This document shows positions 1 to 27,217 of a stretch of DNA of 64,000 bases, piece by piece (position 1 is the stretch's first letter; each line of letters starts with the position of its first letter). The stretch comes from Lebetimonas natsushimae (GTDB lineage Bacteria; Campylobacterota; Campylobacteria; Campylobacterales; Nautiliaceae): positions 1-64,000 of the forward strand of contig NZ_BDME01000002.1 of the NCBI RefSeq assembly GCF_002335445.1, in the 5' to 3' direction. Position numbers and translations under genes: made by a program. The notes under the pieces were generated by a model. It made no database searches and was not told the DNA's origin. It was given only the letters and a program-made list of their open reading frames with translations.

Positions 1-75
1 ACCAGGAAGTTAAGCCCTCCAGCGCTGATGATACTGCACCTTTCGGGTGTGGGAAAGTAGGTCCCCGCTAAGCTT
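1..75 (+). rRNA. rrf: 5S ribosomal RNA, 3' part (partial)
   Basis: The window opens inside a 5S rRNA gene. The segment holds the conserved loop with AGGAAGTTAAG, the loop D/helix IV stretch around GATGATACTGC, the hairpin CACCTTTCGGGTGTGG and the GAAAGTAGGTC 3' arm. The 5' half lies outside the window, so the mature 3' end is only estimated to within a few bases. It is presumably the last gene of a 16S-23S-5S operon read rightward; it converges on the HupE-like gene. Confidence 0.9.
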
Positions 76-8031: not shown

Positions 8032-8032
8032 T

Positions 8033-8986: not shown

Positions 8987-9036
8987 GTTTTCTCCTAAAA
9001 TAACAACTACTTATTTCAGAATCTTTAAAAGATTCT

Positions 9037-9495
9037 TTATAAATTCCTTATTTTTTTTGCAGGATTTCCTGCATATATGCCACTTTCTGTTATATCTTTT
9101 GTAACTACACTTCCTGCGCCTATTACTACATTTGAACAGATTTTAACAGGTAAAATTGTTGCATTACTTCCAATTGATACATTATCTTCAATAATGGTTT
9201 TTTTCCATAATTTAGGATCTCCTGCAGGTTTTCCTTCTTTAAATAAATCGTTTACAAACATTACTCCATGACCAACAAAACAATTTTTTCCAATAGTCAC
9301 TAATTCGCAGATAAAGCTGTGAGATTGAATTCTCGTATTTTTACCTATTTTTACACCTTTTTGAATTTCACAAAAAGGGCCAACAAACACATTATCTTCT
9401 AAAATACATTCATAAAGATTTGAAGGCTCTATTATTGTAACATTTTCTCCGATAATAATGTCTCTTATTTGAGAATTATATACATTTATTTTCAT
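9037..9495 (-). CDS. Hexapeptide-repeat sugar N-acyltransferase
   Basis: A 152-residue left-handed beta-helix protein with repeated [LIV]-G-x4 hexads (VFVGPFCEIQKGVKIGKNTRI, split over residues 32-55) and the closing IGAGSVVTKDI and YAGNPAKKIR segments. This architecture is that of WbpD/WlbB/QdtC-type N-acetyltransferases acting on UDP- or dTDP-3-amino sugars. It overlaps the DUF354 gene by 20 bases and precedes the oxidoreductase/aminotransferase pair, so it probably acylates their amino-sugar product using acetyl-CoA. Whether the acyl group is acetyl, and whether it could instead act on the Fuc4N made by WecE, is open. Confidence 0.82.
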   Translation of the reverse strand: MKINVYNSQIRDIIIGENVTIIEPSNLYECILEDNVFVGPFCEIQKGVKIGKNTRIQSHSFICELVTIGKNCFVGHGVMFVNDLFKEGKPAGDPKLWKKTIIEDNVSIGSNATILPVKICSNVVIGAGSVVTKDITESGIYAGNPAKKIRNL

Positions 9496-10534
9496 AAAAT
9501 TCCTTTATTTGATTCGCAATTTTTTCTAAACTGCATTTTTCTTTACAAAAATATTTTTTATTATTAAATTTTTTATTGATATTTTTTTTAATATATTTAT
9601 AAGCCTCATTTATATCATTTGTCCAAAACATTAAATTATTATCTATTAAATATTTATCATGAATAAGCCAAATGGATCTCATTGAAATAGTAGGAATTCC
9701 ATAATAAACCGCTTCAAGTGTCATAGTCCCACCGCCACCAATAAAAAAATCTATAAAAGGATAAAATTCTTCAGGTTTTAATTTTTCTTCAATCGTATAA
9801 GCAAAAGGAAATTCTTTTTTTAAATAATCACTTTCGTATCGTGGAATAATTACAATATTAAAATTTTCATTCTGTAGTTGTTTAATTAAATTATAAATAA
9901 AATCTTTTTTTTCTTTTACATAATGGGCTTTATATTCTTCTTCTCTTATTAATATTGTAGGTTTATTTTTAGGAATATTGAATTTATCTCTAAAATCATT
10001 TTTTTCTTCTTTTTTTATCTCTTTCATCCATAAACATATATCAATAAAATTATAACTTATTGCATTTTTGGCACAAATAAATAACTCTTTTGGTAATACA
10101 AAAGGATAATATACTATATCGCTAAATGGAATTGTAAGTCTCGAAACAGGTGTTAAATCATTATGTATTGTTTTATAATTCGGTTGTAGGGAAATTGGAG
10201 TATCATTAAAATTTATAATTTTTATACCTAAGCCATAAGCCAATTGAGTACTGTCAACTACACTTCCACTAATTAGTAATTTAGGATAACCTATTTTTTC
10301 AAATAAATCTAAAAATGCTTTTTGTCTTTTTGTTCTTGCTAAAAATTTTTCTTTTTTACTACTTCCACCATAATTTCCTGTTAAATAGTATTCTAAATTA
10401 TAATTATCTAAAATTTCTTTTACTTCTATATAATTTGCAGAATATCTTGCAGTAATTAATACATCATTTAAATATGGGATTAATCTTGCAAAAAAATGAG
10501 CATATTTTGGAGTTGCAATATCAATCCAAATCAT
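9476..10534 (-). CDS. DUF354-family protein (epimerase/GT-B-like)
   Basis: A 352-residue protein of the DUF354 family, which resembles the UDP-GlcNAc 2-epimerase/GT-B fold. Visible are the N-terminal MIWIDIATPKYAHFFARL, where families of this type bind substrate, NFNDTPI in the middle and the C-terminal FFIGGGGTMTLEAVYYGIP, the nucleotide-binding loop. DUF354 proteins are frequent in archaeal and bacterial glycan loci but uncharacterised. In WlbABCD-type pathways a 2-epimerase finishes the sugar, so an epimerase or glycosyltransferase role is possible; no catalytic assignment is made. Confidence 0.75.
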   Translation of the reverse strand: MIWIDIATPKYAHFFARLIPYLNDVLITARYSANYIEVKEILDNYNLEYYLTGNYGGSSKKEKFLARTKRQKAFLDLFEKIGYPKLLISGSVVDSTQLAYGLGIKIINFNDTPISLQPNYKTIHNDLTPVSRLTIPFSDIVYYPFVLPKELFICAKNAISYNFIDICLWMKEIKKEEKNDFRDKFNIPKNKPTILIREEEYKAHYVKEKKDFIYNLIKQLQNENFNIVIIPRYESDYLKKEFPFAYTIEEKLKPEEFYPFIDFFIGGGGTMTLEAVYYGIPTISMRSIWLIHDKYLIDNNLMFWTNDINEAYKYIKKNINKKFNNKKYFCKEKCSLEKIANQIKEFYENKCI

Positions 10535-11544
10535 TTACCAATCTTTGCTTTTTCCAATTTTAAATTATCAATAAAAATTTCTTTATTGGTTGCAATGCTT
10601 TCATACATTGCATTCATAACTTTAATGGATTTTATTCCCTCTTCCATTTCACATATACCTTTTTTATTATCTTCAATTGATTCAATAACATCTTTATAAA
10701 ATTCCATGTGTCCAAATCCATAAACATTTTCAGGATTTTGAGAATATTTTTTTATATCTATTTGTTCATCTAGTTCCCATTTTACAATTTTATTAGCCGC
10801 AAATCCACCGATTTCCACCATTCCTTTATTTCCAAGCAATGAAATACTGCCTTCAATATCTTTTGGTCTTGTAGCGGTTGTAGCTTCAAATGTACCAACA
10901 GCTCCATTTTTAAATTTTAATGTAGCGACCGCAGTATCTTCTGTTTCAATTTTTGCAAAAGCATTAATACTTTTAGCATACACACTTTCTATATCTCCCA
11001 CAAGATAAATTAATAAATCCAAATGATGTATCGCTTGATTTGAAATTACACCTCCATCATATTCCCAAGTTCCTCTCCAGTTGTCCATATTGTAATATTC
11101 TTGTGTTCTTGACCATCTAACTCTTGTCGTGGCTAAAAAAATTTTACCTAATTTATTTTTACTTTCTTTGATTTTTTTTATGGGTAAGTTAAAACGGTTT
11201 TGTTTTACAGTAAAAAGTTTTGTACCCACTTTTTTAGCTAGTTTTACTAAATTTTCAGCTTCAAAATATCTTAAGGTCATTGGTTTTTCTATTATTAAGT
11301 GTTTTTTATGTTCTATTACATCAAGAGCATGTTTATAATGCATTCCACTTGGAGTTAAAATTGAAACAATATCTATTTTTTCTTTTTTGAGCATTTCATT
11401 ATAATCTTTATAATAAGGAACTCCTATTTTTTTTGCTTTGTTTAAGTCAATATCACAAACTGCAACTAAATTCAAATTATTTTTTTTAATAGCTTCTATA
11501 TGTTTTTTACTAATACGACCACAGCCTATTAATGCAATATTCAT
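10531..11544 (-). CDS. WlbA/WbpB-like Gfo/Idh oxidoreductase
   Basis: A 337-residue NAD-dependent oxidoreductase. After the Rossmann core (LIGCGRISKKHIEAI) and EKP motif (LIIEKPMTLRY) come blocks very like WlbA, the UDP-GlcNAcA 3-oxidase: FTVKQNRFNLP, WRGTWEYDGGVISNQ, IHHLDLLIYLVGD, IETEDTA and VEIGGFAANKIVKW. It therefore likely oxidises C3 of a UDP-N-acetylglucuronate-type sugar. It overlaps the DUF354 gene by four bases. The supply of UDP-GlcNAcA needs a 6-dehydrogenase that is not seen here and may be encoded elsewhere. Confidence 0.85.
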   Translation of the reverse strand: MNIALIGCGRISKKHIEAIKKNNLNLVAVCDIDLNKAKKIGVPYYKDYNEMLKKEKIDIVSILTPSGMHYKHALDVIEHKKHLIIEKPMTLRYFEAENLVKLAKKVGTKLFTVKQNRFNLPIKKIKESKNKLGKIFLATTRVRWSRTQEYYNMDNWRGTWEYDGGVISNQAIHHLDLLIYLVGDIESVYAKSINAFAKIETEDTAVATLKFKNGAVGTFEATTATRPKDIEGSISLLGNKGMVEIGGFAANKIVKWELDEQIDIKKYSQNPENVYGFGHMEFYKDVIESIEDNKKGICEMEEGIKSIKVMNAMYESIATNKEIFIDNLKLEKAKIGK

Positions 11545-11576: not shown

Positions 11577-12716
11577 TTATATAAAAAATTTTTTAATAGT
11601 ATTGATTATATATGATATTTCTTTTTCTTTTAATCCATAAAATAAGGGTAATCTAATAATTTTTTCACTTTCTTTTGTAGTATATATATCTTTTCCTCCA
11701 AATTTACCGTATTTTTTACCTGCAGGAGAAGAATGTAGAGGTATGTAATGAAAAGTAGCAAAAATCCCTCTTTCTTTAAAAAATTTTAAAAGTTTTGTTC
11801 TGATTTTTAAATCTTTAGTCTTAATATAAAACATATGGGCATTATGATTACATTCTTTTGGGACAATAGGTAACTGAATATAACCTTTTTTTTCCAATTC
11901 TTTTAATCCGTCATAATATTTTTGCCAAATTTTTAATCTATAATTATTTATTTCATTAGCTTTTTCAAGCTGGGCATATAAATATGCAGCACTAATTTCA
12001 TTCATTAAATAACTACTTCCAATATCGATCCAGGTATATTTATCAACTTCACCTCTAAAAAATGCATTTCTATTTGTTCCTTTTTCTCTAATAATTTCAG
12101 CTCTTTTTATAAATTTTTCGTCATTGATAATTAAAAGTCCACCTTCTCCTCCACTTGTATAATTTTTTGTTTCATGAAAACTATAACACCCTAAGTGCCC
12201 AATTGTTCCCAGAGGTTTATTTTTATAATTACTCATCATTCCCTGAGCTGCATCTTCTATTACAAACAAATTATATTTATCAGCAATTTTCATTATAATA
12301 TCCATTTCACAACCAACTCCAGCATAATGAACAGGTACTATAGCTTTCGTTTTTTCTGTAATTGATGCCTCTATTTTAGTTTCATCTATATTCATAGTAT
12401 CAGGTCTAATATCAACAAAGACTATTTTTGCGCCTCTTAATACAAAAGCATTGGCAGTAGAAACAAAAGTATATGATGGTATAATAACTTCATCGCCGGG
12501 TTTTATATCTATGAGAATTGCGGCCATTTCAAGTGCATGAGTGCATGATGGAGTTAATAAAGCTTTTTTACATTTAAGCTTTTCCTCAAACCATTTTTGA
12601 CACTTTTTAGAAAATTTCCCATCTCCAGAAATTTTATTACTTTTTATAGCTTCTAAAATATATTTATCTTCGTTTCCTGTATAGCAAGGTTTATTAAATG
12701 GTATTTGATAGCTCAT
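11577..12716 (-). CDS. wecE: dTDP-4-amino-4,6-dideoxygalactose transaminase, WecE/RffA
   Basis: A 379-residue DegT aminotransferase strikingly close to enterobacterial WecE/RffA, sharing KALLTPSCTHALEMAA, PSYTFVSTANAFVLRG, VDIRPDTMNIDE, PVHYAGVGCEMD, FHETKNYTSGGEGG (PLP lysine) and IREKGTNRNAFFRG. It aminates dTDP-4-keto-6-deoxyglucose, the product of RfbA and RfbB encoded in the same operon, to dTDP-Fuc4N. In enteric bacteria WecD then acetylates and WecF transfers the sugar; a WecF-like gene is present here but no WecD. The start codon abuts the stop of the ATP-grasp gene with no gap. Confidence 0.93.
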   Translation of the reverse strand: MSYQIPFNKPCYTGNEDKYILEAIKSNKISGDGKFSKKCQKWFEEKLKCKKALLTPSCTHALEMAAILIDIKPGDEVIIPSYTFVSTANAFVLRGAKIVFVDIRPDTMNIDETKIEASITEKTKAIVPVHYAGVGCEMDIIMKIADKYNLFVIEDAAQGMMSNYKNKPLGTIGHLGCYSFHETKNYTSGGEGGLLIINDEKFIKRAEIIREKGTNRNAFFRGEVDKYTWIDIGSSYLMNEISAAYLYAQLEKANEINNYRLKIWQKYYDGLKELEKKGYIQLPIVPKECNHNAHMFYIKTKDLKIRTKLLKFFKERGIFATFHYIPLHSSPAGKKYGKFGGKDIYTTKESEKIIRLPLFYGLKEKEISYIINTIKKFFI

Positions 12717-13895
12717 TTATTTTACTTTTAATTTTATTAAGTCATAAATTATATTAATTTTTTCTTTCATTTCTTCTTTTGTTTTATATTTTAAAAACAC
12801 TATTCCAGCTTTATATGTTAAATAATCGTTAATAATATCCCCTTTTTTACCCCATATGAATTTTTTTATTATATTTTTTTTTATGGTTTTATCAAATATA
12901 ATATCTGCTAATATTCCATTTTTATTAGTCATTAAACAATGGCGAGTAATTAAATTATTATTTTTATTTACTGGATTATTAATTTTTTTGCCTATAAAAC
13001 TTTTTAAAATTAATTCAGCGTAATTTATATCTGTTGCATATTCAACTAATTCAAGATATAAATCGCCAGGAATTCTCCTACAAACTTCTATTATATAGAT
13101 TTCGTCATTTTTTAAAATAAACTGAGTATGAATAATTCCATCTTTTAAGTTTAATAATTTTGCAATTTTTTCAATATTGGTAATTAATTGTCTTGTTATT
13201 TTGCGGTTTATTGTTAAAGAAGTAGAAGCCCCTGCTACTAAATATTTATTTTTATAATAATATTCATCATCACAAAAATAAAAAATTATTTTTTTGTTTT
13301 TTATAATAGCTGTAAAACCATGATTTGTACCTTCAATAAATTCTTCAATAATAATTCTTTTTGCTTTTGATTTGTTAAAAGCTTCTTCTAAAGATTTTTT
13401 AATTTCTTTTATATTAAATTTATCAATTTTTGTAACACCTTTTCCACCACTTAGATCTACAGGTTTTATTATTATAGGGAATTTGAAATTTTTTATTTCA
13501 TTTATTGCTGAATTAAAATTAGAAAAACCTTTTGCTTTTGGAATAGGTATATTGTTTTCATTTGCAAATTTTTTAAAAAGATCTTTATTATGAATAATTT
13601 GAGAAACTTTATAATTATCAAAATTGCCTATATTTAATTTATCTGAAATATATGAAGCCGATAAAGCTGCAAAATCATTACTTCCAGGACATATCTCATC
13701 TATTTTTAAATTTTTAACTAAATTTAACATAGCTTCTTTATTGGAGTAATCTTCTTTTATATATTTATCAGAAAATTTATGTCCGATATCGGTTTCTTTG
13801 TTACCGGTTGTAATAACAAAATAACCTAATTCTTTTGCTACTTGAATTATAGGAATTTCAGCATGACTTCCACCCAAAATTAACATTTTTTTCAT
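12717..13895 (-). CDS. ATP-grasp carboxylate-amine ligase-like protein
   Basis: A 392-residue ATP-grasp protein of the PurK/CarB-like group. The N-terminal pre-ATP-grasp Rossmann subdomain shows LILGGSHAEIPIIQVA; the ATP-binding part has FPIIIKPVDLSGGKGV (phosphate loop), RIIIEEFIEGTNHG and, near residue 280, the metal-binding IYIIEVCRRIPGD. Such enzymes join a carboxylate to an amine through an acyl-phosphate. It lies between wecE, which makes an amino sugar, and the radical-SAM fusion, and overlaps the latter by four bases. A plausible role is attaching an amino or hydroxy acid to the free 4-amino group of Fuc4N, an inference from context only. Confidence 0.82.
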   Translation of the reverse strand: MKKMLILGGSHAEIPIIQVAKELGYFVITTGNKETDIGHKFSDKYIKEDYSNKEAMLNLVKNLKIDEICPGSNDFAALSASYISDKLNIGNFDNYKVSQIIHNKDLFKKFANENNIPIPKAKGFSNFNSAINEIKNFKFPIIIKPVDLSGGKGVTKIDKFNIKEIKKSLEEAFNKSKAKRIIIEEFIEGTNHGFTAIIKNKKIIFYFCDDEYYYKNKYLVAGASTSLTINRKITRQLITNIEKIAKLLNLKDGIIHTQFILKNDEIYIIEVCRRIPGDLYLELVEYATDINYAELILKSFIGKKINNPVNKNNNLITRHCLMTNKNGILADIIFDKTIKKNIIKKFIWGKKGDIINDYLTYKAGIVFLKYKTKEEMKEKINIIYDLIKLKVK

Positions 13896-16195
13896 ATGAT
13901 AACTTTTTCAATTAATCTATTTTTATTTATTCCCAATTTATTAAATTTTTTTATAATTAAAGGCGTATTTTGAGAAGCTGAAATAATTATTGGATAATTG
14001 TCGTCTACTAACTTATTTGAACTATAAACGGGATATCCGAAAAAATTTTTACCAATTTTTGATGAAGTGTCATCAACAATATATGCTATTTCTGTTTTTT
14101 TTATCAAATATGAATTTGTTAATAATTGTTTTGTTTGTACTCCTGCTCCCCATATAATTACTTTTTTATATAAATTAGGGTTGAATAAAAACTCATCATA
14201 ACCATAGTTTTTTAATTTTTTAATTAATTCATTATATTTATTATCATCAATTTTTAATCGTTGTCTTAAAAGATCATCTAAAAATACTATATTAGCTCCA
14301 TGTTGTTTTAATAGAGTATATAAAATAATTATAGCTACAATCGAATCAATATCAACAATTTCTTTTTTAAAATTAAAACTAATTTGAAAGTTATTTTTTA
14401 TTAAATTATATTTATTTATTAAGTTTACAAAATTTTTTATATTATTTAAATCTTTGTTTTCATCTAGGATGATATATTTTATAGTTATATTTCCATCGTT
14501 ATCGCATTTACTATATTTTTGTAAATTATTAAAAATTTTATAAAAAGATTTACTATTTCTAATATAAAAAAATGTTTTTTCTATTCCAGCATCAATGCTT
14601 GTAGTAATTCGTATTTTATTTTCTTTTAGAAAATTACAAATTTCTGGTACATATTTAGTTGCATTTGTGATAATTATTGGTTTAATTTTAGGAAATTTTT
14701 TTATAATAAAATTTAAAATTTCTAAAAAATTTTTATCTAATGTAGGCTCTCCACCGCCCCAAACTATTGATTTTATCTTTTTTAAAGAATTATTTTCATA
14801 TAGTCCTTGTATTAATTGTTTAACATTATATTTTGGTTTTTCTCCACCGTAATAAATTTCACTGCAATATATACATTTCATATTACAAATTGAATGATAT
14901 TCTAATGATAAATGTTCAACATTTAATTTATCAATATATCCCCACTCTTTAAATTCTAAAAATGGGCAATTTTTACATTCTTCAGCTTCATCTCGATTTA
15001 TTTTATAATATAAATTTTGTTTAGCTTTTAAAATATTCTCAGGAGTAATATTTTCTTTGTTTGCATTTAATAAGACAATATCCCCTTTCATTTTTCCATT
15101 ATCAAAAAATCTTTTACAGCATGTTCTTATTTCATTGTAAGATAAAAATAATGAATTATGCAGGTCATAACAACTCCAACTTTTTTTAGAAATATCTTTT
15201 AGAAATTTATTTATTTTTGTTATTTGCTTATCAATGTTATTTAAAAAATAATTTACAATCATAAAATATTTTGTATTTTTGTGTATTGTTTGTATTTTCT
15301 TTTTCAAATTTATAGATAATAAAGATTCAACTTGCAGTATTTTTTCATATAAATATTTATAAAGTTTTATTTGTTCTGTTTCTTTAACACAATTTCTGTA
15401 TATATTTAAAATTTCTACTGCTATTATATTAATTATGCCTATAATATAATGTTTTTTTATATTTTGTGAAAAAATTTTTTCTTTTTTTAGAAATTCATAT
15501 ATTTTTATAAATGATTTAAAATAGTCATCAATATGTTTTTTTGAAATTGTATTAATAATAGAGTTGCTTCTATTGAACTTTTTGTATATTTTTTTATCTA
15601 AAATATGTATTTTTTGCGCTTTTACATATGCTTGAAATATAAAATAAATATCTTCATGATATCCATTTTCAAATTTAATGTTATTGTACTTTAATAAATA
15701 GGTTGGAAATAATGTATAAATAACTGATCCATCCATACCCAATGAGATAAAATCTTTAATTAATTCAATTTTTTCTTTTTTTAAACTATTAAAATCATAT
15801 CGTCCTTCAAATTTTTGAATATTTTTATTAATAAATTTCCAATTATAAGCAATAATATCGTTATTTTTTAGATTATTTTCTTTTATAAAATTATGTAATT
15901 CAGAAATAGCAAAATTTTCTAATTCATCGTCACTGTCTAAAAATAATATCCAATCTCCTTCAGATTTTTCTATTCCAATATTTCTTGCAATACCAGGACC
16001 TGAATTTATGTTGGTTTTATAAATTTTTATTCTATAATCTTTTATATTTTTTACTATATTTAAAGTATTATCGATTGAACAATCATCAACTATTATTATT
16101 TCTAAGTTATTATATGTTTGATTTAAAACACTAATTATACTTCTAGCAATAGTTTTTTCAGAATTATATGTTGGAATAATTATAGAAAATTTCAT
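13892..16195 (-). CDS. GT2 glycosyltransferase-radical SAM-Rossmann fusion protein
   Basis: A 767-residue three-part protein. Residues 1 to about 230 are a family-2 glycosyltransferase (SIIIPTYNSEKTIARSI, IIIVDDCSIDNT, ILFLDSDDE; a later HEDIYF). A helical linker and a Cys-rich segment (CYDLHN, RTCCKRFF, ECKNCPF) follow. Residues 430-640 form a radical SAM domain with the 4Fe-4S ligands CNMKCIYC at 437-444 and the SAM-binding VWGGGEPTLD. The last 92 residues are a Rossmann-like domain (VIIWGAGVQTKQLL, PIIISASQNT). The ATG at 16195 is chosen because it makes an ATGA overlap with the upstream gene; an ATG at 16210 lacks a ribosome site. I know no characterised protein of this layout. Confidence 0.85.
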   Translation of the reverse strand: MKFSIIIPTYNSEKTIARSIISVLNQTYNNLEIIIVDDCSIDNTLNIVKNIKDYRIKIYKTNINSGPGIARNIGIEKSEGDWILFLDSDDELENFAISELHNFIKENNLKNNDIIAYNWKFINKNIQKFEGRYDFNSLKKEKIELIKDFISLGMDGSVIYTLFPTYLLKYNNIKFENGYHEDIYFIFQAYVKAQKIHILDKKIYKKFNRSNSIINTISKKHIDDYFKSFIKIYEFLKKEKIFSQNIKKHYIIGIINIIAVEILNIYRNCVKETEQIKLYKYLYEKILQVESLLSINLKKKIQTIHKNTKYFMIVNYFLNNIDKQITKINKFLKDISKKSWSCYDLHNSLFLSYNEIRTCCKRFFDNGKMKGDIVLLNANKENITPENILKAKQNLYYKINRDEAEECKNCPFLEFKEWGYIDKLNVEHLSLEYHSICNMKCIYCSEIYYGGEKPKYNVKQLIQGLYENNSLKKIKSIVWGGGEPTLDKNFLEILNFIIKKFPKIKPIIITNATKYVPEICNFLKENKIRITTSIDAGIEKTFFYIRNSKSFYKIFNNLQKYSKCDNDGNITIKYIILDENKDLNNIKNFVNLINKYNLIKNNFQISFNFKKEIVDIDSIVAIIILYTLLKQHGANIVFLDDLLRQRLKIDDNKYNELIKKLKNYGYDEFLFNPNLYKKVIIWGAGVQTKQLLTNSYLIKKTEIAYIVDDTSSKIGKNFFGYPVYSSNKLVDDNYPIIISASQNTPLIIKKFNKLGINKNRLIEKVII

Positions 16196-17286
16196 TGTAT
16201 ATTTTCCCATTTTTTATTTTTACTTGATTTATTCATAGCAGTTAATAATTTAAGCCCTTCAATAGCTTCCTCTATTCCAAAAACATATTCGTTCAATTGA
16301 TTATGTAATATTGAATCATAAATATCGCAATAATAATTTGCAAAAGCTTCTATAAATCCAATAGGATGACCTGCTTTGAATCTGTTGTATCTCTTTTTTT
16401 TAGAAATTATTGCATTTGGACTTTCTCTATCAATAATAAATTTATTTCCTGTATTATCGCAAAAATATAAATTTTCAGGTTTCATTTGATACCATGTTGC
16501 AGAACCTTTTTCTCCATATACCCTTACTTTTAGACCATTTCTATGACCAATAGCTGATTTACTAAACCAAATATTTGAAACGACATTACCAGTATAATTA
16601 ATTATAGCTATAGTATTATCTATAACATTAAAATTGCCGAAGTTATTATTAATTGCAATAATTTCTAAAGGTTTTTCTTCTATTAAAAAATATATAATAT
16701 TGTGTATATGACTTGCTAAATCTAAATATATTGTAGGTAAAATATAATCTTTAAGGCGCCAATCTTGAGGGTTTTTATTTAATTTAATAAAACTTTCTTG
16801 AGGCATTTCGATATGTATTTGATTAATTTTGCCTAATTTATTATTTTTTATCATATGTTTTAATTCTCGTAACATTGGATAACCAGTATAATTATATATT
16901 ACAGCTAAAAAACCATTATTTCTTTTTAAAGCTTTTTTTATTTCTGATGCTTCTTCCACTGATAAAGCAATAGCTTTTTCACAAATTACTTTTATGTTAT
17001 TATCTAAACATTTTATTATTTCATTTTTGTGGTTTGGTATTGGAGTTAATATTGATATTGCATCAATATTATTTTTTTCATATTTAATTAACTCTTCTAA
17101 ACTGTTATAACATCTCTTAATATCAATATCATAAATTTTTGCTGTTTGTAAATTTATTTTTTCATTTTTACTAAAGCATCCTGCTACCAATTCAAATTTT
17201 TTATCCATTTCAACTGCAATTCTGTGAACTTGACCTACTGCTGAATTTATGCCTCCTCCTAAAAATGCTATTTTTAATTTTTTCAT
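16192..17286 (-). CDS. Gfo/Idh/MocA-family oxidoreductase
   Basis: A 364-residue NAD(P)-dependent oxidoreductase. The N terminus IAFLGGGINSAVGQVHRIA is a dinucleotide-binding loop; ISILTPIPNHK and VICEKAIALSVEE replace the common EKP by EKA. The C-terminal domain shows IYLDLASHIHNIIYFL, AIGHRNGLKVRVYGEKGSATW and RFKAGHPIGFIEAF, seen in the inositol/sugar dehydrogenase subgroup whose members often act on UDP- or dTDP-sugars. It overlaps the GT2/radical-SAM gene by ATGA, suggesting the two work on the same sugar. Its substrate is unknown. Confidence 0.83.
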   Translation of the reverse strand: MKKLKIAFLGGGINSAVGQVHRIAVEMDKKFELVAGCFSKNEKINLQTAKIYDIDIKRCYNSLEELIKYEKNNIDAISILTPIPNHKNEIIKCLDNNIKVICEKAIALSVEEASEIKKALKRNNGFLAVIYNYTGYPMLRELKHMIKNNKLGKINQIHIEMPQESFIKLNKNPQDWRLKDYILPTIYLDLASHIHNIIYFLIEEKPLEIIAINNNFGNFNVIDNTIAIINYTGNVVSNIWFSKSAIGHRNGLKVRVYGEKGSATWYQMKPENLYFCDNTGNKFIIDRESPNAIISKKKRYNRFKAGHPIGFIEAFANYYCDIYDSILHNQLNEYVFGIEEAIEGLKLLTAMNKSSKNKKWENIQ

Positions 17287-17299
17287 ACATTGCCTTTTT

Positions 17300-18295
17300 T
17301 TAAATTATAAAAATATTTTCCCATTGCGCTTTTAAATTTTCAATGGAAAAATAAAATTTAATTATTTCTACATTTTTAGATAAATCTTTTTTTTCAAATA
17401 ATGTATTTTCTAAATTATTGTAATCATACACAATTATCTCTTTTTCTTGAAAGTATTTCCATAAACTGTTATTAGGTTTTAAATAGATTTTTTTACCCAT
17501 TCCTAATAAAGTAATAATATTGCCAAATGCTTGTTGCCTTTCATGAGCAAATATAGCTATATCAATGTTGCTTAAAAAGTTTAAATAATTTTTTAAAGGT
17601 ATAATTTTTTTAATGGGTATAAATTTATTTTTCATAAGATTTTTACCGTATTTTATAATTTTTTCAGCATATATTGTATCTCCATAAGATAAAGGAGCAT
17701 ATACTCTAATATTTTTATTTTTATATTTATAAAGTTTATTTAATATATCTTTATGATTATTAGTAGGATCTGCAGAATTTCCAATTTGAATATTTATAAT
17801 AGATTTTTTTTTTAATCTGGTATTTATTTCTTTGTAAATATTAGAAGGATAAGCAAAACAATTTATTCTTTTTCCTTTAATAGAATATTTATTAATTAAA
17901 TATTTATAATCCCATTTGTTTTCTGTAACAAAAAATTTTATATGTTTAATGGTTTCTTTTTTTATTTCACTTTGCTTTTCAGGAAAATAAAAATCTCCTC
18001 CCCACATTACCCAATAAGTTTTTTCAAAAAATTTTTCATTATTTAAAAGTATTTCGCAAAGTTTATCATACCAAAGACCATGGAGTATAATTTGTTTTGC
18101 TTTTTTCATATTTTTAATAAAAAATTCTTCTTGTGTAAAAATATCTTTTGTAATTGCATTTTCAAATTTTGAAATATTTTTTTCAGCACTACAAAGAATA
18201 AAAAAATGCTCATTTTTATCAAAATGATTATTAACAAATTCGATAAAAGGATAATTTATATGTTTTGAACTATCAGCCATTATATGAAGTATCAT
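17300..18295 (-). CDS. WecF-like GT56 4-acetamido-4,6-dideoxygalactosyltransferase
   Basis: A 331-residue protein of glycosyltransferase family 56, the family of WecF/RffT, which transfers Fuc4NAc from dTDP-Fuc4NAc to lipid-linked sugar. Recognisable blocks are HGLWYDKL, VMWGGDFYFP, the conserved INIQIGNSADPTNNHKDIL, VYAPLSYGD and the C-terminal FAHERQQAFGNIITLLGMGKK. Its presence with rfbA, rfbB and wecE argues that Fuc4N or a derivative is the donor. It is cytoplasmic or membrane-peripheral, with no obvious membrane helices. The four-base overlap with rfbB couples them. Confidence 0.85.
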   Translation of the reverse strand: MILHIMADSSKHINYPFIEFVNNHFDKNEHFFILCSAEKNISKFENAITKDIFTQEEFFIKNMKKAKQIILHGLWYDKLCEILLNNEKFFEKTYWVMWGGDFYFPEKQSEIKKETIKHIKFFVTENKWDYKYLINKYSIKGKRINCFAYPSNIYKEINTRLKKKSIINIQIGNSADPTNNHKDILNKLYKYKNKNIRVYAPLSYGDTIYAEKIIKYGKNLMKNKFIPIKKIIPLKNYLNFLSNIDIAIFAHERQQAFGNIITLLGMGKKIYLKPNNSLWKYFQEKEIIVYDYNNLENTLFEKKDLSKNVEIIKFYFSIENLKAQWENIFII

Positions 18296-19344
18296 TTATA
18301 TTTTTCCAAATACCACCTAACAGTCTTAACAATACCACTTTCAAAATTTTCATCTGCTCTCCAGCCAAGTTCATTTTCTATTTTACTTGCATCTATTGCA
18401 TATCTTCTATCATGTCCAGGTCTGTCAGATACAAAAGTTATAAGTTCCTTATAACTTTTTAGTTTTGAATGTTGAGTGTTAAGTTTTGAATTTTTTTTTA
18501 TAGGATATAATTCATCTAATATCTCACATATTTTATTTGCTATATAAATATTAGTTCTCTCATTTCTTCCACCAATATTATATGTGTCTCCATTTTTACC
18601 TTTATGATAAGCTAAATCTATTCCTTTACAGTGATCTAACACATAAAGCCAATCTCTTATATTTTTACCATCTCCGTATATAGGTATAGGGTTGCCTTGC
18701 AGGGCATTTCTTATAATTGTAGGTATCAGTTTTTCATCATGTTGTTTTGGTCCATAATTGTTTGAACAATTTGTAATAATTGTATTCATTCCGTATGTGT
18801 GATGATAACTTCTGATAATCATATCAGAACTTGCTTTACTAGCACTGTATGGTGAATTTGGAGCATAAGGTGTTTTTTCAGTAAAGAGTATATTAGGATC
18901 TTCCGGCAAAGTTCCATATACTTCATCAGTGGAAATATGGTGAAACCTGCAATCTTCATATCCTTCTTTATATTTAAAAGGTCCATCCATCCAATATTTA
19001 TAAGCCACATCTATTAATGTATAAGTACCATTTACATTTGTCTCTACAAAAACACCAGGATTTTTAATAGAATTATCTACATGAGATTCTGCCGCAAAAT
19101 GAATTACACTTTTTATATCAAATTCATCAAAAATGAATTCTACTAATTCCCTGTTGCAAATATCACCTTTTATAAATTTATATCTTGGATTATTTTTCAC
19201 TTCTTTTAAATTTTCTAAATTTCCCGCATATGTTAGTTTATCTAAATTGATTATTTTATATTCAGGATATTTTTCCAAAAAATACGGAATAAAATTGCTT
19301 CCTATAAACCCAGCCCCACCTGTTATAAGAATGTTTTTCAACAT
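18292..19344 (-). CDS. rfbB: dTDP-glucose 4,6-dehydratase, RfbB
   Basis: Converts dTDP-glucose to dTDP-4-keto-6-deoxyglucose. The extended SDR shows ITGGAGFIGSNFIPY, HFAAESHVDNSI, the catalytic STDEVYG and YSASKASSD, and DRPGHDRRYAID. It is 350 residues. Near residue 285 it carries an unusual stretch (YPIKKNSKLNTQHSKLKSYK region) coded by a low-complexity DNA repeat that lengthens the loop before the conserved ELITF. The gene abuts rfbA (one-base overlap) and supplies the substrate of WecE. Confidence 0.94.
   Translation of the reverse strand: MLKNILITGGAGFIGSNFIPYFLEKYPEYKIINLDKLTYAGNLENLKEVKNNPRYKFIKGDICNRELVEFIFDEFDIKSVIHFAAESHVDNSIKNPGVFVETNVNGTYTLIDVAYKYWMDGPFKYKEGYEDCRFHHISTDEVYGTLPEDPNILFTEKTPYAPNSPYSASKASSDMIIRSYHHTYGMNTIITNCSNNYGPKQHDEKLIPTIIRNALQGNPIPIYGDGKNIRDWLYVLDHCKGIDLAYHKGKNGDTYNIGGRNERTNIYIANKICEILDELYPIKKNSKLNTQHSKLKSYKELITFVSDRPGHDRRYAIDASKIENELGWRADENFESGIVKTVRWYLEKYK
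18433..18491. repeat. Palindrome plus direct repeats inside rfbB
   Basis: Two kinds of repeat sit side by side in the rfbB coding sequence. Positions 18433-18444 and 18448-18459 are perfect 12-base inverted arms (AAAAGTTATAAG / CTTATAACTTTT) with a three-base loop. Next to them AGTTTTGAAT occurs twice, at 18461-18470 and 18482-18491, separated by 11 bases. The direct repeats code for the extra loop residues in RfbB and keep the reading frame. Confidence 0.75.
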
Positions 19345-20216
19345 TAATCTCCTGCGATTTCCATTAAATATTTTCCATATTCAGTTTTTTCAAATTTTTT
19401 AGCTAATTTTTGAAGTTGATTTCTATCTATCCATTTATTATTGTAAGCAATTTCTTCTATACAAGCAACTTTTAAACCTGTTCTTTTTTCAATGGTTCTT
19501 ATAAAATTAGATGCATCAAGTAAACTGTCATGTGTTCCTGTATCAAACCATGCATATCCTCTGCCCAGAAGTTCTACTTTTAATCTGTTTTCTTTTAAAT
19601 ACATTTCATTTATTGAAGTAATTTCTAATTCACCTCTGGCACTTGGTTTGACATTGTAAGCTTTTTTAATAACATCATTTGGATAAAAATAAAGCCCTAC
19701 TACCGCATAATTACTTTTTGGATTTTTTGGCTTTTCTTCTATGCTTATTACTTTTCCGTTTTTATCAAATTCTACTATTCCATATTCCTGTGGGTTGTTT
19801 ACATTGTATCCAAAAATTACTGAATTGTTTTTTTTAACATTTTTTTTTGCATTATTTAATAAATCTATTAAACCGTGACCGTAAATAATATTATCACCTA
19901 ATACTAAACATACATTTTTATTTTCTATAAATTGCTCACCTAAAATAAATGCTTCTGCTATACCTTTTGCTTCTTCCTGAACTGCATATTTAATTTTTAA
20001 TCCCAATTGACTGCCATCTTTAAAGATTCTTTTGTAATTTTTTATATATTCATAATTTGAAATAATTAATATTTCTTTGATCTTACTTAACATTAATATG
20101 GAAAGTGGATAATATATCATTGGTTTATTATAAAGAGGAAGTAAATGTTTGGATATTCCTTTTGTTATAGGATATAGTCTTGTTCCTTTTCCTCCAGCTA
20201 GAATTATCCCTTTCAT
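19344..20216 (-). CDS. rfbA: Glucose-1-phosphate thymidylyltransferase, RfbA
   Basis: Makes dTDP-glucose from dTTP and glucose-1-phosphate. The nucleotidyltransferase signature [16 protein letters not shown], the metal-binding [30 protein letters not shown] and [18 protein letters not shown] are all present. At 290 residues it matches the standard enzyme. It overlaps the upstream glycosyltransferase by four bases and rfbB by one, so donor-sugar synthesis is co-expressed with the transferases. Confidence 0.95.
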
Positions 20217-22089: not shown

Positions 22090-23601
22090 ATGGGATTTAG
22101 AATTAGGACAAATGTAGCTGCATTAAATGCTCATGCTTCAGTAATGGTTACAAATAGAAATTTAAACAATTCATTAGAAAAATTAAGTACAGGTTTAAGA
22201 ATCAATAAAGCAGCGGATGATGCTTCAGGACTTCAAATTGCAGATGCTTTAAGAGACCAGGCAGACAGTTTGGGCCAGGCAATCAGAAATGCAAACGATG
22301 CTATCGGAGTTATGCAAATTGCGGATAAAGCAATGGATGAACAGGTTAAAATACTTAATACAATTAAAGTAAAGGCTACTCAGGCTGCACAGGACGGACA
22401 GACAACAGATACAAGAAAAGCGCTTCAAGAAGATATAGTAAGACTTATGGAAGAGCTTGACAATATTGCTCAAACAACATCATATAACGGTAAAAAATTA
22501 CTTAGCGGTAGTTTTACAAATCAAAAATTCCAAATAGGCGCATATTCTAATGAGACTATTACAGCAAGTATCGGTGCTACTTCTTCAGATAAAATAGGAA
22601 ATACAAGATTTGAAACAACAGCAAATTTAAAAGTTTCAACAACTGATGCATTAACAACAGTTGATTTAAAATTTACAAAAGTAGACGGAAAAAAAGATGT
22701 TCAATTAGAAGAAGTTGTAATATCAACAAGTGCGGGAACAGGATTAGGAGTATTAGCAGAAGTTATAAACAAAAACTCTGATTTAACAGGGGTTAGGGCT
22801 TCATGGCAGGTACAAGGTACGGCATCAAAAGCTGTGCAATCAGGGACAATTCACGGATTAAAAATCAATGGAGTGGAAATAGGGGATTTAACAGTACAAC
22901 ACGCAGACAGAGACGGTACATTAGTAGCGGCGATAAATGCAGTAAAAGACCAAACAGGTGTGGAAGCATTTATAGATGAGGAAGGAAAATTAAATTTAAG
23001 AAGTTTGGATGGAAGGGCTATTCAAGTATCAACAAGTTCAGCTTCAACAGTGCTTGGAGGAGGAAACTTTACAAAGGCTTCAGGAACAGACACAATAGTA
23101 GGAAGATTGACATTTGTCAGACTTGATGCCAGAGATATAAAAATTTCCGGAACAAATGTAAGTAAAATCGGTGTAACAAGCAATATGGCTCAGGCTACTA
23201 TCAATTTAAGATCAATTAAAGATTCATTTGGGGCAGATGAGGCAAGTGCGATTGGTGTGCATGCTAATTCAAATGTAGCACATTATACAGAAAGTGTTGG
23301 AGCAGGTGTTACAACCCTAAAAGGCGCAATGGCTGTTATGGATATTGCTGATAGTGCTATGAAATTACTTGATAAAATCAGAGCTGACATTGGTTCAGTA
23401 CAGAATCAATTAGTAAGTACAATAAACAACATTTCAGTAACACAGGTAAATGTAAAAGCGGCTGAAAGTCAAATCAGAGATGTGGATTTTGCAGCTGAAA
23501 CAGCTAATTTCCAAAAATGGAATCTATTAGCACAATCAGGTAGTTATGCTTTATCTCAGGCTAATACTGTTCAACAAAATGTTATGAGATTACTTCAATA
23601 A
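22090..23601 (+). CDS. flaA: Flagellin (major, FlaA type)
   Basis: A 503-residue flagellin, the filament subunit exported by the flagellar type III apparatus. The D0/D1 N terminus ([51 protein letters not shown]) and C terminus ([32 protein letters not shown]) are intact. A long central surface domain holds a flagellin hook-IN-like segment ([16 protein letters not shown]). It starts at the ATG seven bases after AAAAGGAG and is read from a sigma28 promoter. It shares a DNA-identical central block with flaB. The nearby pse genes and Maf suggest its Ser/Thr residues carry pseudaminic acid. Confidence 0.96.
22684..23128 (+). repeat. Identical 445-bp block, copy 1 (flaA)
   Basis: By eye this segment is base-for-base identical to 24319-24763 in flaB, including all silent positions. 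It encodes the central, surface-exposed part of flagellin. The flanking coding sequence diverges in both directions. Confidence 0.85.
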
Positions 23602-23602
23602 T

Positions 23603-23630
23603 AAAAGGCTTTTTGCCTTTTTCTTCTTTT
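23603..23630 (+). terminator. Rho-independent terminator after flaA
   Basis: AAAAGGC (23603-23609) pairs with GCCTTTT (23615-23621) across a five-T loop and is followed by a T-rich tract. It begins just after the flaA stop codon and separates flaA from the independently promoted flaB. Confidence 0.75.
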
Positions 23631-23676
23631 TTAATTTATTACCTTCAAATTTATGTTATTCGTTTTTTTTATTGTT

Positions 23677-23693
23677 TTGGAACACCTTTTGCT
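23677..23693 (+). promoter_or_regulatory. Sigma54 (RpoN) promoter of flaB
   Basis: TTGGAAC-N5-TTGCT with GG at 23679-23680 and GC at 23691-23692 exactly ten bases apart is a near-consensus -24/-12 element. It lies 32 bases before the second flagellin's ATG, after the flaA terminator. Sigma54 control of a second flagellin mirrors Campylobacter flaB. Confidence 0.82.
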
Positions 23694-23724
23694 TCTCCTT
23701 TTTAAAATAATAAGGAGATAAACA

Positions 23725-25239
23725 ATGGGGTTTAGGATAAATACTAATATAGCTGCCCTTACTGCACATACGGCAGCAGTTGCAAATAATAGGGAACTTA
23801 GCAGTTCATTAGAAAAATTAAGTACAGGTTTAAGAATCAATAAAGCAGCGGATGATGCTTCAGGACTTCAAATTGCAGATAGTTTAAGAGACCAGGCAGA
23901 CAGTTTGGGCCAGGCAATCAGAAATGCAAACGATGCTATCGGTGTGTTTCAAATTGCGGATAAAGCAATGGATGAACAGGTTAAAATTCTTGATACGATT
24001 AAAGTAAAGGCTACTCAGGCTGCACAGGACGGACAGACAACAGATACAAGAAAAGCGCTTCAAGAAGATATAGTAAGACTTATGGAAGAGCTTGACAATA
24101 TTGCTCAAACAACATCATATAACGGTAAAAAATTACTTAGCGGTAGTTTTACAAATCAAAAATTCCAAATAGGCGCATATTCTAATGAAACAGTACAAGC
24201 AAGTATCGGTGCTACTTCTTCAGATAAAATAGGAAATACAAGATTTGAAACAACAGCAAATTTAAAAGTTTCAACAACTGATGCATTAACAACAGTTGAT
24301 TTAAAATTCAAATCAGTTGACGGAAAAAAAGATGTTCAATTAGAAGAAGTTGTAATATCAACAAGTGCGGGAACAGGATTAGGAGTATTAGCAGAAGTTA
24401 TAAACAAAAACTCTGATTTAACAGGGGTTAGGGCTTCATGGCAGGTACAAGGTACGGCATCAAAAGCTGTGCAATCAGGGACAATTCACGGATTAAAAAT
24501 CAATGGAGTGGAAATAGGGGATTTAACAGTACAACACGCAGACAGAGACGGTACATTAGTAGCGGCGATAAATGCAGTAAAAGACCAAACAGGTGTGGAA
24601 GCATTTATAGATGAGGAAGGAAAATTAAATTTAAGAAGTTTGGATGGAAGGGCTATTCAAGTATCAACAAGTTCAGCTTCAACAGTGCTTGGAGGAGGAA
24701 ACTTTACAAAGGCTTCAGGAACAGACACAATAGTAGGAAGATTGACATTTGTCAGACTTGATGGAAGAGATATAAAAATTTCCGGAACAAATGCAAGTAA
24801 AATCGGTGTAACAAGCAATATGGCTCAGGCAAGTATTAATTTAAGAACAATTAAAGGGTCATTTAATGCAGATCAGGCGAGTGCAATCGGAGCAAATGCC
24901 AATACTATAATAGCAACAGAAAATAATAGTGGAATTGGAGCAGGTGTTACAACCATAAAAGGTGCAATGGCTGTTATGGATATTGCCCAAAGTGCTCAAA
25001 GACTACTTGATAAAATCAGAGCTGACATTGGTTCAGTACAGAATCAATTGGTAAGCACAATAAACAACATTTCAGTAACACAGGTAAATGTAAAAGCGGC
25101 TGAAAGTCAAATCAGAGATGTGGATTTTGCAGCTGAAACAGCTAATTTCCAAAAACATAATATTCTAGCACAATCAGGTAGTTATGCTTTATCTCAGGCT
25201 AATGCTATTCAACAAAACGTCCTAAAATTATTACAATAA
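23725..25239 (+). CDS. flaB: Flagellin (second copy, FlaB type)
   Basis: A 504-residue flagellin paralogous to flaA. The N terminus ([24 protein letters not shown]) and the stretch before the C-terminal D1 helix differ from flaA, while the central domain is the same at DNA level. The ends needed for export and polymerisation are intact ([35 protein letters not shown]). It has its own sigma54 promoter and an AAGGAG ribosome site, and lacks the leader hairpin of flaA. In Campylobacter the sigma54 copy is the minor, hook-proximal subunit; here that is inferred from promoter class only. Confidence 0.95.
24319..24763 (+). repeat. Identical 445-bp block, copy 2 (flaB)
   Basis: Second copy of the block at 22684-23128, offset by 1635 bases, the distance between the two start codons. 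High similarity extends further upstream, to about position 23808, with scattered differences. Confidence 0.85.
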
Positions 25240-25309: not shown

Positions 25310-27217
25310 TTATTTTTGAGTTATTTGTAGTTCTTTTTCAATGAAAGGCAATGCTCTTTGAATTGTAATAATTTGTGCATTTATACTGCCTGCTAAATTA
25401 AATAACCATTCTTTGTGATTCATTATCCAGTCTATCAATTTTGCTTTTTTTTCAATATCTGTTTGAGAATTTTGAACTTGTATTTTAGCTAAATCTGTTT
25501 CTTTATTGACTAAGTATGAAATTATTGTTTCTCCATAGCACTGCATAAAAGTTTTTGATTCTATTTTTTCTTTAATTTTATCTATTTTTTTTGATAATCT
25601 TTTTAATTTATTAAAATCTATTTTTTCAAGTTGATTGTTTTTATTTAAATTTACTAATTCATCAAATGTTTCAGATACTTCAACAAAAACTTTTTCTGTT
25701 TCATTTTTTACTTTTTCTCCAATTTTTATCATTTTTAATATTTTTTTATAAGCTTTTTGTAAATTTTTAATATATCCATCTTTTCTTGGTTTTCTAAGTT
25801 TAATTTTAGTTTTTGGAGTTTTTGTTACATATTTATTAATAACTTCAATAAACGGCATTTCAATACTACCTTCAATTCTGGCACCACCTTCTGTGGCATT
25901 TATTGTTATTATACCTTCAAGAGATGTTTCATAAATATCTTTTTCAAAAAAATTTTTAAACATAAGCCAAGTTTGAGAAGTCCTTATAGTACCTTCTCCC
26001 CCATATTTTGTAACATATTCATCTGTTTCTTTAAATTTTATTTCTTTTTCTCCATATACATGTCCTTTAGCATGACTTGTACCATCTTCACTATATGCCA
26101 AATCTTGCCCAATTAATACTATTTTTTTAAATCCGAGTAAATATGCAAGTTCATAAGCCATATTTGCAGCACTCATTCCAATCCCGAGATAGCCATATTT
26201 TTTTAGACCGAAATATCTATTATATTGGAAACCTCTCATTGATAAAATTCTTGGTCCGTAAGAATTTTTCAATACTTCTTCATGTTGAAGCGAAGCATGT
26301 ATAGTGATAAATTTTTCTTGGAATTTTTTAGAAGTTTTTTTAAAAAATTTTGCTGTATCTTTTACTCTTTCTAGACTTGTTACAAAATCAGGCACTATTT
26401 CCCATTTTTCAAGTATTGGCATTGAAGCGTCAACACTAATTATTGTTACATAATCTTGTATTTTTTTTAATAATGGTAATTGTTTAGTTAAAGATGGACC
26501 GGTAGAAACTATAATTGCTATATCAGAGTTTTTTTTGCCGATTATTGATTGAATTGGTGGATTTTTAAGCATTTCTGGAAAATTTCTAATAGAGTGTTCT
26601 ATTCCTATTAAAGTATCAATTGTATCATTCCCAAAATTTATAATTGATTGTTTTATTGCTTGGGCAAAAATTCTATTAACATTTATTATTTCTTCAGAAT
26701 ATAGTTTTTCATAATATTTTGTATTTATTTGTAACTCATATGTTTTAACAAATAGCACTATATCAGAATTGGACATAATTTTTATAGCTTCAGGATAGTT
26801 AAATTGAGATAATTTATAAAGAATTAGTTTATTTTCTTCAATTTCCTTTGCAAAATCTATTAAGTTTAAAACAATAAATAAAATTTGAGTATCAGGTTCT
26901 ATAACAATTATCTTTTTTCTTATTGGATTATTTAATAAAAGTTTTATTAAAATTCCATTTCCAATTCCAAAGAAAAATAAAACGGGATATCTTATATATT
27001 TTTTGTCAAATAATTTTTTTTGAGATTCTATTTCATCTAATGGTTTGGTCTCATAAAGAGGTAATTTTTTTTCTTTATCTATTAGATTTATATTGGCTGG
27101 GTCGTCGCCATGTTGGAAAATTTCGAATTTGGTATTACGCAAGCCAAAAAGTTCAGTGGCAAGATTTGGATTTTTATCAAATAAAGCTTTTATGTTTTTT
27201 TCAAAAATTGAAGACAT
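25310..27217 (-). CDS. maf: Maf-type flagellin glycosyltransferase (DUF115)
   Basis: A 635-residue motility accessory factor. The central DUF115/MptE-like domain is seen in IAIIVSTGPSLTKQLPLL (nucleotide-sugar site), IISVDASMPILEKW, the TSLERV segment, MSAANMAYELAYLLGFKKIVLIGQDLAYS and the SHAKGHVYGE motif. Maf proteins of Campylobacter, Helicobacter and Aeromonas transfer pseudaminic acid to Ser/Thr of flagellin in the cytoplasm before export. The gene faces flaB and has an AAAAGGGG ribosome site and a sigma28-like promoter upstream, consistent with expression alongside flagellin. Confidence 0.9.
   Translation of the reverse strand: MSSIFEKNIKALFDKNPNLATELFGLRNTKFEIFQHGDDPANINLIDKEKKLPLYETKPLDEIESQKKLFDKKYIRYPVLFFFGIGNGILIKLLLNNPIRKKIIVIEPDTQILFIVLNLIDFAKEIEENKLILYKLSQFNYPEAIKIMSNSDIVLFVKTYELQINTKYYEKLYSEEIINVNRIFAQAIKQSIINFGNDTIDTLIGIEHSIRNFPEMLKNPPIQSIIGKKNSDIAIIVSTGPSLTKQLPLLKKIQDYVTIISVDASMPILEKWEIVPDFVTSLERVKDTAKFFKKTSKKFQEKFITIHASLQHEEVLKNSYGPRILSMRGFQYNRYFGLKKYGYLGIGMSAANMAYELAYLLGFKKIVLIGQDLAYSEDGTSHAKGHVYGEKEIKFKETDEYVTKYGGEGTIRTSQTWLMFKNFFEKDIYETSLEGIITINATEGGARIEGSIEMPFIEVINKYVTKTPKTKIKLRKPRKDGYIKNLQKAYKKILKMIKIGEKVKNETEKVFVEVSETFDELVNLNKNNQLEKIDFNKLKRLSKKIDKIKEKIESKTFMQCYGETIISYLVNKETDLAKIQVQNSQTDIEKKAKLIDWIMNHKEWLFNLAGSINAQIITIQRALPFIEKELQITQK

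Follow-up and report, generated by a model that had tools for sequence, protein, structure and literature searches.

A gene of Lebetimonas natsushimae, located in the 64,000 nucleotides of contig NZ_BDME01000002.1 analysed here (the window), encodes in one chain a family-2 glycosyltransferase (GT2) domain, a Cys-rich segment, a radical S-adenosylmethionine (SAM) barrel and a C-terminal Rossmann-like domain. We put the probability at about one half that its product is a bifunctional enzyme which transfers a sugar and tailors the sugar or an acyl group by radical chemistry, in a flagellin or surface-glycan locus. The components of this reading differ in strength: that the protein is a real bifunctional glycosyltransferase and radical SAM enzyme appears very highly probable, and that it acts in an amino-sugar/acyl glycan pathway is probable, while a two-electron oxidation, as opposed to another radical reaction, is a tentative assignment which may well prove wrong.

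The longest open reading frame (ORF), 13892..16210 on the reverse strand, comprises 772 codons with zero internal stops and offers two in-frame ATG codons, at 16210 and 16195. The latter is the likelier start, since the start of several homologues corresponds to this second Met (MKFSIIIP) and since it forms a 4-base overlap, ATGA, with the end of the Gfo/Idh gene (TGA). The TGA of the fusion gene likewise overlaps the ATG of the ATP-grasp gene as ATGA; with such overlaps on both sides, translation of the three genes is probably coupled. Residue numbers are counted from ATG 16210; counted from ATG 16195 each is 5 lower, i.e., the motif CNMKCIYC occupies residues 442–449 in the first numbering and 437–444 in the second. 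The genome contains a single copy of the fusion and 18 radical SAM matches in total. The original prediction, made from the sequence alone, had described one gene encoding a three-part fusion that overlaps both the ATP-grasp and the Gfo/Idh gene; the uninterrupted frame, the Pfam domains, the ATGA overlaps and the presence of the same fusion in 12 other genomes of many phyla (34–46% identity, same Cys spacing) bear this out. Two genes joined by a frameshift or an assembly error, the alternative named at that time, are ruled out, since those 12 genomes carry the full-length fusion.

The GT2 domain matched PF00535 with 118 bits (Pfam cut-off 23.3), and D42/D43, D92/D94/D95 and H185-E186-D187 of its VDD, DSDD and HED motifs are invariant in 13 sequences. 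The nearest structures were TarS, TarP, CgT and RmlT. TarS, TarP and RmlT have the GT-A domain fold in common with this half; unlike the fusion, they act on wall teichoic acid and are devoid of a radical SAM domain. Sugar transfer is presumably performed by the GT2 half. Since the best 50 Foldseek matches of the full-length model were all GT2 proteins, a model of the second half was built and searched on its own.

PF04055 (Radical_SAM) was matched with 56 bits in the window protein (cut-off 29.5) and was found in all 13 fusions. Eight Cys residues (C347, C364, C365, C412, C415, C442, C446 and C449) are invariant in 14 of 14 sequences. AlphaFold2 (AF2) modelled the full protein from 13 aligned sequences with a predicted local distance difference test score (pLDDT) of 86, and the half comprising the Cys-rich segment, barrel and Rossmann-like domain from 14 sequences with a pLDDT of 88 and a predicted template modelling score of 0.88. 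Strands and helices of the model follow in (beta/alpha)6 order, with the full barrel set; the Cys loop was modelled at low confidence, which is expected because the cluster is absent from the model. A radical SAM core with CNMKCIYC and GGGEP, as claimed initially, is thus corroborated by the family match, the invariant Cys and the predicted barrel, which is complete in the structure prediction that had been suggested as a check; at the level of sequence and model, a complete barrel and conserved catalytic residues in both halves can be regarded as confirmed.

The Cys-rich segment which the original prediction had noted is also present, with five invariant Cys, and its assignment could be refined. 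The spacing of these Cys is near-constant in the 14 sequences, 17-1-(47..51)-3, and the predicted order is C347, a hairpin, C364/C365, a helix, then C412 and C415, all before the barrel. Twitch domains have a Cys before a hairpin, one after it and two after a helix (PMC6231123), a layout whose order the auxiliary Cys follow, although here they precede the barrel. The Gly of the pattern CX9-15GX4C is absent; five residues ahead of C364 the window protein has N, and most homologues have D, N or S. As a structural inference, the segment would be a twitch-like auxiliary-cluster domain, permuted to a position before the barrel. Foldseek matches of the second half were SkfB, SuiB, CteB, anSME and BlsE, while profile searches by sequence yielded MoaA, SkfB, Cfr and BtrN. 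No NCBIfam model reached its cut-off for the fusion protein among the matches listed, and no curated family spans the whole protein. The family NF033640 (N_Twi_rSAM) has, by its name, an N-terminal twitch followed by a radical SAM core, as in the fusion; however, its model of 398 positions contains neither a GT2 nor a Rossmann domain, and the fusion reaches 52.6 bits where 170 are required, with the radical SAM core alone aligned (model positions 101–317).

Conservation bears on whether the second half is catalytic. A fused domain may in principle lose its catalytic function, so that a scaffold or a regulator of the glycosyltransferase could be imagined; however, none of the three radical SAM Cys and none of the auxiliary Cys varies among 14 diverged sequences, and mean identity is higher in the radical SAM half (43%) than in the GT2 half (33%), which makes a non-catalytic role very improbable. 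Epimerisation of a sugar, with abstraction of a ring-carbon hydrogen and its return by a Cys on the other face, was reported for the aminoglycoside-modifying radical SAM enzyme NeoN (PMC10991966). A near-invariant Cys at the last barrel strand (column of residue 606) is found in 13 of 14 homologues and could be such a donor in the family; in the window protein this only near-invariant extra barrel Cys is replaced by Asn, so that it is no essential hydrogen donor here, and a NeoN-like epimerase is therefore less likely. Epimerisation alone would also leave the dedicated Gfo/Idh partner unexplained. Altogether such an activity is considered unlikely.

Among 397 genomes of Campylobacterota, the fusion was detected in three, that of the window and those of two other families (47% and 42% identity over the second half; ORF lengths 769 and 790 codons). 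When 84,980 species genomes were scanned, 12 loci were obtained, one of them in a Helicobacter genome already encountered in the Campylobacterota search: Colwellia, Accumulibacter, Rhodocyclales, Acidobacteria, Helicobacter sp. 11S02596-1, one beta-proteobacterium, Verrucomicrobiota, Methylophaga, one alpha-proteobacterium, Poribacteria, Rhizobium and Prochlorococcus. Thus 14 loci, including that of the window, were available for comparison, 13 of them fused; in Prochlorococcus the GT2 (327 amino acids) and radical SAM (437 amino acids) proteins are encoded by neighbouring separate genes with 6 bases between them. In further samples of 369, 250, 250 and 21 genomes the fusion was found in the seed genomes only. 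This sparse distribution points to lateral spread. A phage or plasmid gene was rejected, since no match to the fusion was obtained among viral contigs, phages or plasmids. One blastp match, L018 11662-14286, was considered as a second gene of this kind and rejected, its Pfam domains being GT2 and TPR only.

The neighbourhood comparison proposed together with the original prediction showed that a Gfo/Idh gene and a ligase gene recur beside the fusion across the 14 loci. An orthologue of the Gfo/Idh protein (42–54% identical) is encoded at 11 of them. Some ligase is present at 13, as ATP-grasp at eight and as an AMP (adenosine monophosphate)-ligase of one group at six; a related hexapeptide acyltransferase accompanies the latter in four loci. 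DegT transaminases occur at 12 of the 14 loci, including the window's own (11 if just one is required outside Alphaproteobacteria, Poribacteria and Prochlorococcus). In Mantel tests, for which the samples were small and shared species ancestry was uncorrected, distances of the GT2 half were correlated with those of the radical SAM half (r 0.78, P 2e-4), and the latter with those of Gfo/Idh (r 0.65, P 2e-4), while those of the radical SAM half and ATP-grasp were uncorrelated (r 0.13). The two halves of the fusion thus appear, from their sequences, to have a common history.

AAC(3)-like and DUF4910/DUF2172 genes adjoin the same Gfo/Idh gene in two relatives; a DUF4910-family gene was searched for in the genome of L. 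natsushimae and is absent. Cj1295 of Campylobacter jejuni, described as aminopeptidase-like, is taken by us, from this description, to be of the DUF4910/DUF2172 type. In C. jejuni this gene is required for di-O-methylglyceroyl pseudaminic acid (PMC3068675). Because of such neighbours and of the role of Cj1295, there is a hint, by analogy, that the module deals with acylated amino sugars. These data, and the ligase as the other near-constant neighbour, also provide the strongest rival to sugar oxidation, namely that the radical SAM half alters an acyl or aminoacyl group (a hydroxy acid or amino acid) on an amino sugar and that the GT2 domain then places the residue. However, the divergence of ATP-grasp does not track that of the radical SAM half, and elsewhere the ligase is replaced by an unrelated type; one particular acyl group is therefore less likely as the substrate, and we rate this explanation as possible, yet rather improbable.

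When the Gfo/Idh gene was searched for alone, it was found in 16 of the 397 Campylobacterota genomes, 13 of them without the fusion. In 10 of these 13 loci an FkbM methyltransferase gene lies beside it or a few genes away, often followed by an ATP-grasp gene of the same kind, i.e., these methyltransferases occupy the same slot as the fusion. Their N-terminal segment is Rossmann-like and related to the C-terminal domain of the fusion (hhalign probability 94.5%, E 8e-8, with the segments delimited by eye). The latter domain matched a CoA_binding-type Rossmann family with 22.3 bits, exactly at the Pfam cut-off, and PDB 3nkl in a profile search (E 8e-5), so that, of the nucleotide-binding domain first suggested at the C-terminus, the Rossmann-like fold is supported. 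In the methyltransferases this domain is N-terminal and the catalytic head is a methyltransferase, whereas in the fusion it is C-terminal and the head is a radical SAM domain. We read this as a mobile module with an exchangeable SAM-dependent head, which would be mostly a methyltransferase in other Campylobacterota and a radical SAM enzyme here. Since methyltransferases in the same slot elsewhere bear the same kind of domain, the Rossmann-like domain is probably a docking site for a common substrate or partner.

Several observations were made on the module in other loci. In the Helicobacter group (L014, L035-L039), the Gfo/Idh-FkbM-ATP-grasp module is accompanied by stand-alone SPASM radical SAM genes, one or two per locus, a further case of radical SAM enzymes at glycan loci; the second gene is split over two frames in L035 (8113-9160) and L039 (837-1908), which could be phase variation or a sequencing error. 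A B12-binding radical SAM protein is encoded directly after Gfo/Idh in one fusion locus (L021 14478-16325). In L014, two acyltransferase-type genes (5236-5934 and 14631-15284) have nearly identical N-terminal halves and divergent remainders, which suggests gene conversion or modular recombination.

The operon in the window contains genes for RmlA, RmlB, a WecF-like glycosyltransferase, Gfo/Idh, the fusion, ATP-grasp and WecE, and then a second sugar set (Table 1). The location within a deoxythymidine diphosphate (dTDP)-amino-sugar operon, as stated at the outset, is supported by RmlA, RmlB, WecE and the WecF-like protein; the flagellin and Maf setting had been omitted. Past one end of the operon lie two flagellin genes and a Maf gene, past the other a cytidylyltransferase gene and a NeuB-type gene. 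Since sugar-biosynthesis genes adjoin flagellin and Maf genes, together with a NeuB-type gene, the locus is, judging from its gene content, a flagellin glycosylation island. The second sugar set (6946-11544, reverse strand) comprises a DegT transaminase, two Gfo/Idh proteins, one with 116 bits to UDP (uridine diphosphate)-GlcNAc 3-dehydrogenase, below the cut-off, a hexapeptide acyltransferase and a DUF354 protein; the set resembles a pathway to a UDP-2,3-diamino sugar. A protein of 591 amino acids (20213-21988, reverse strand), without a family match reaching the cut-off, is 49% identical to an island protein from a genome of the same family (L043 10393-12204) and weakly similar to glycosyltransferases in L024 and L025; it is possibly an undescribed flagellin glycosyltransferase.

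Table 1. Features of the fusion gene and of its surroundings in the window
Feature	Position	Strand	Basis
GT2-twitch-radical SAM-Rossmann fusion gene	13892..16195	-	ORF list, ATGA overlaps, homologue starts
GT2 (GT-A) glycosyltransferase domain and helical tail, residues 6-340	15191..16195	-	PF00535, structure matches, motifs
Twitch-like auxiliary-cluster domain, residues 343-423 (C347, C364, C365, C412, C415)	14942..15184	-	Cys pattern, AF2
Radical SAM barrel, residues 430-650	14261..14923	-	PF04055, AF2, Foldseek
CNMKCIYC, CxxxCxxC [4Fe-4S]/SAM motif (C442, C446, C449)	14864..14887	-	invariant 14/14
GGGEP, SAM-binding GGE-type motif	14744..14758	-	kept across fusion family
C-terminal Rossmann-like domain, residues 677-772	13895..14182	-	CoA_binding, 3nkl, hhalign
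NeuB-type gene	5927-6949		Pfam
WecE-type dTDP-4-amino-4,6-dideoxyhexose transaminase	11577..12716	-	TIGR02379 693 bits, cut-off 435
ATP-grasp ligase (amidoligase type)	12717..13895	-	Pfam; PDB 4dim, 3vot
Gfo/Idh/MocA oxidoreductase	16192..17286	-	Pfam
WecF-like (GT56) glycosyltransferase	17300..18295	-	PF07429; PRK02797.1-5 335 bits, below cut-off 457
RmlB dTDP-glucose 4,6-dehydratase	18292..19344	-	TIGR01181 478 bits, cut-off 365
RmlA glucose-1-phosphate thymidylyltransferase	19344..20216	-	TIGR01207 444 bits, cut-off 361
Two tandem flagellin genes, 91% identical	22090..25239	+	PF00669/PF00700, blastp
Maf-type flagellin glycosyltransferase	25310..27217	-	PF01973 151 bits, PF20157

Flagellin genes are located at most 20 kb from the fusion in five loci (window, Colwellia, Methylophaga, Accumulibacter and a Rhodocyclales bin). 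In the two other Campylobacterota no flagellin genes were found within 20 kb of the fusion, and in the Prochlorococcus and Verrucomicrobiota genomes bearing the family flagellin was not detected. Since flagellin genes are near some of the loci and absent at others, the family would appear to serve surface glycans in general, and often flagellin. The same distribution argues against a maturase of flagellin itself, comparable to anSME, SkfB or SuiB, which might otherwise be proposed from the best fold matches, which are peptide-modifying SPASM/twitch enzymes, and from the proximity of flagellin genes in the window; this role is regarded as highly unlikely.

For the bifunctional enzyme the following course of reactions could be envisaged. 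The GT2 domain, judged by its family and conserved residues, would move a nucleoside diphosphate-activated sugar onto the growing glycan, and in L. natsushimae the donor may come from the dTDP-4-amino-4,6-dideoxyhexose pool of RmlA, RmlB and WecE. The radical SAM domain would then form a 5'-deoxyadenosyl radical and abstract hydrogen from the sugar residue or from an N-acyl or aminoacyl group; the twitch-type cluster would accept the second electron, so that the substrate would be oxidised by two electrons overall, like that of BtrN; the Cys pattern and the fold suggest this. Finally, as co-occurrence and correlated divergence indicate, the Gfo/Idh partner may reduce or further oxidise the carbonyl, and the ATP-grasp protein (elsewhere the AMP-ligase, often with an acyltransferase) may add an acyl or aminoacyl group. 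Modification of the sugar during its transfer is plausible; the target could equally be an acyl or aminoacyl group on an amino sugar.

BtrN, the butirosin dehydrogenase, is a twitch radical SAM enzyme which oxidises an aminocyclitol, its four-Cys auxiliary cluster being the proposed electron acceptor (PMC9012708). Oxidation of this type is favoured on two grounds: the single four-Cys twitch cluster and the substrate of BtrN, and the carbonyl which would thereby be provided for a dedicated Gfo/Idh protein of NAD(P) type. The fusion likewise has a radical SAM barrel, one twitch-type auxiliary site and an amino-sugar-like setting, and its auxiliary Cys, in sequence and in the AF2 model, would suffice in count and order for BtrN-type four-Cys ligation. 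The sequence match is weak, however; BtrN has no GT2 or Rossmann fusion, the twitch domain of the window protein is N-terminal to the barrel, and the activity of the fusion is predicted.

Several points weigh against a bifunctional enzyme with such oxidative chemistry. PF13186 was not among the Pfam matches of any of the 13 fusion members, and the twitch-like domain lies before the barrel and not, as in SPASM/twitch enzymes, after it. Either C364 or C365 may be the ligand, so that four-Cys ligation of the cluster is an assumption. Within the SPASM/twitch group the reaction is unpredictable from sequence similarity (PMC6231123), and twitch enzymes of the MoaA type are redox-neutral (PMC9012708). 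The Gfo/Idh gene is absent from about 10 kb on either side of the genes of Colwellia, Poribacteria and Prochlorococcus. Chemistry and substrate of the fusion are what we infer from sequences.

Glycosyltransferases joined to a SAM-dependent tailoring domain are known from flagellin islands: glycosyltransferase-methyltransferase fusions, GT41 and GT2-30, in enterobacteria (PMC4875605), and a GT2-methyltransferase, with ATP-grasp and FdtB, in the type B flagellin locus of Clostridium difficile (PMC5207246, PMC5207245). An ATP-grasp gene, sfmE, belongs to the flagellin glycosylation locus of S. oneidensis (PMC3765264). The C. difficile island has, as does the window, a sugar transaminase (FdtB) and an ATP-grasp protein; as a direct homologue it was rejected, since this logic of ATP-grasp and amino sugar is common to both but no radical enzyme is described there (PMC5207246, PMC5207245). 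The head of the known fusions is a methyltransferase, whereas the window fusion has a radical SAM/twitch head and a Gfo/Idh partner, and Pfam detected no methyltransferase domain in its chain. Of the original claim that no characterised enzyme joins sugar transfer and radical chemistry, the literal part stands, as no report of a GT2-radical SAM fusion was found in open-licence papers; because of the methyltransferase fusions, the combination is less isolated than had been stated.

Taken together, there are about even chances that these proteins constitute a hitherto undescribed family, spread by lateral transfer, of radical SAM enzymes coupled to glycosyltransferases, which as the head of an exchangeable module would carry out radical C-H chemistry on nascent flagellin or surface glycans and produce a residue not yet seen. 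Sugar-acting radical SAM enzymes are known mainly from antibiotic pathways, e.g., BtrN and NeoN. If the proposal is true, radical chemistry would, beyond such pathways, also shape bacterial surface glycans, and the glycan would be predicted to differ in mass by a specific amount that can be checked. The Gfo/Idh-ligase-Rossmann module could then be used as a marker for locating other undescribed glycan modifications.

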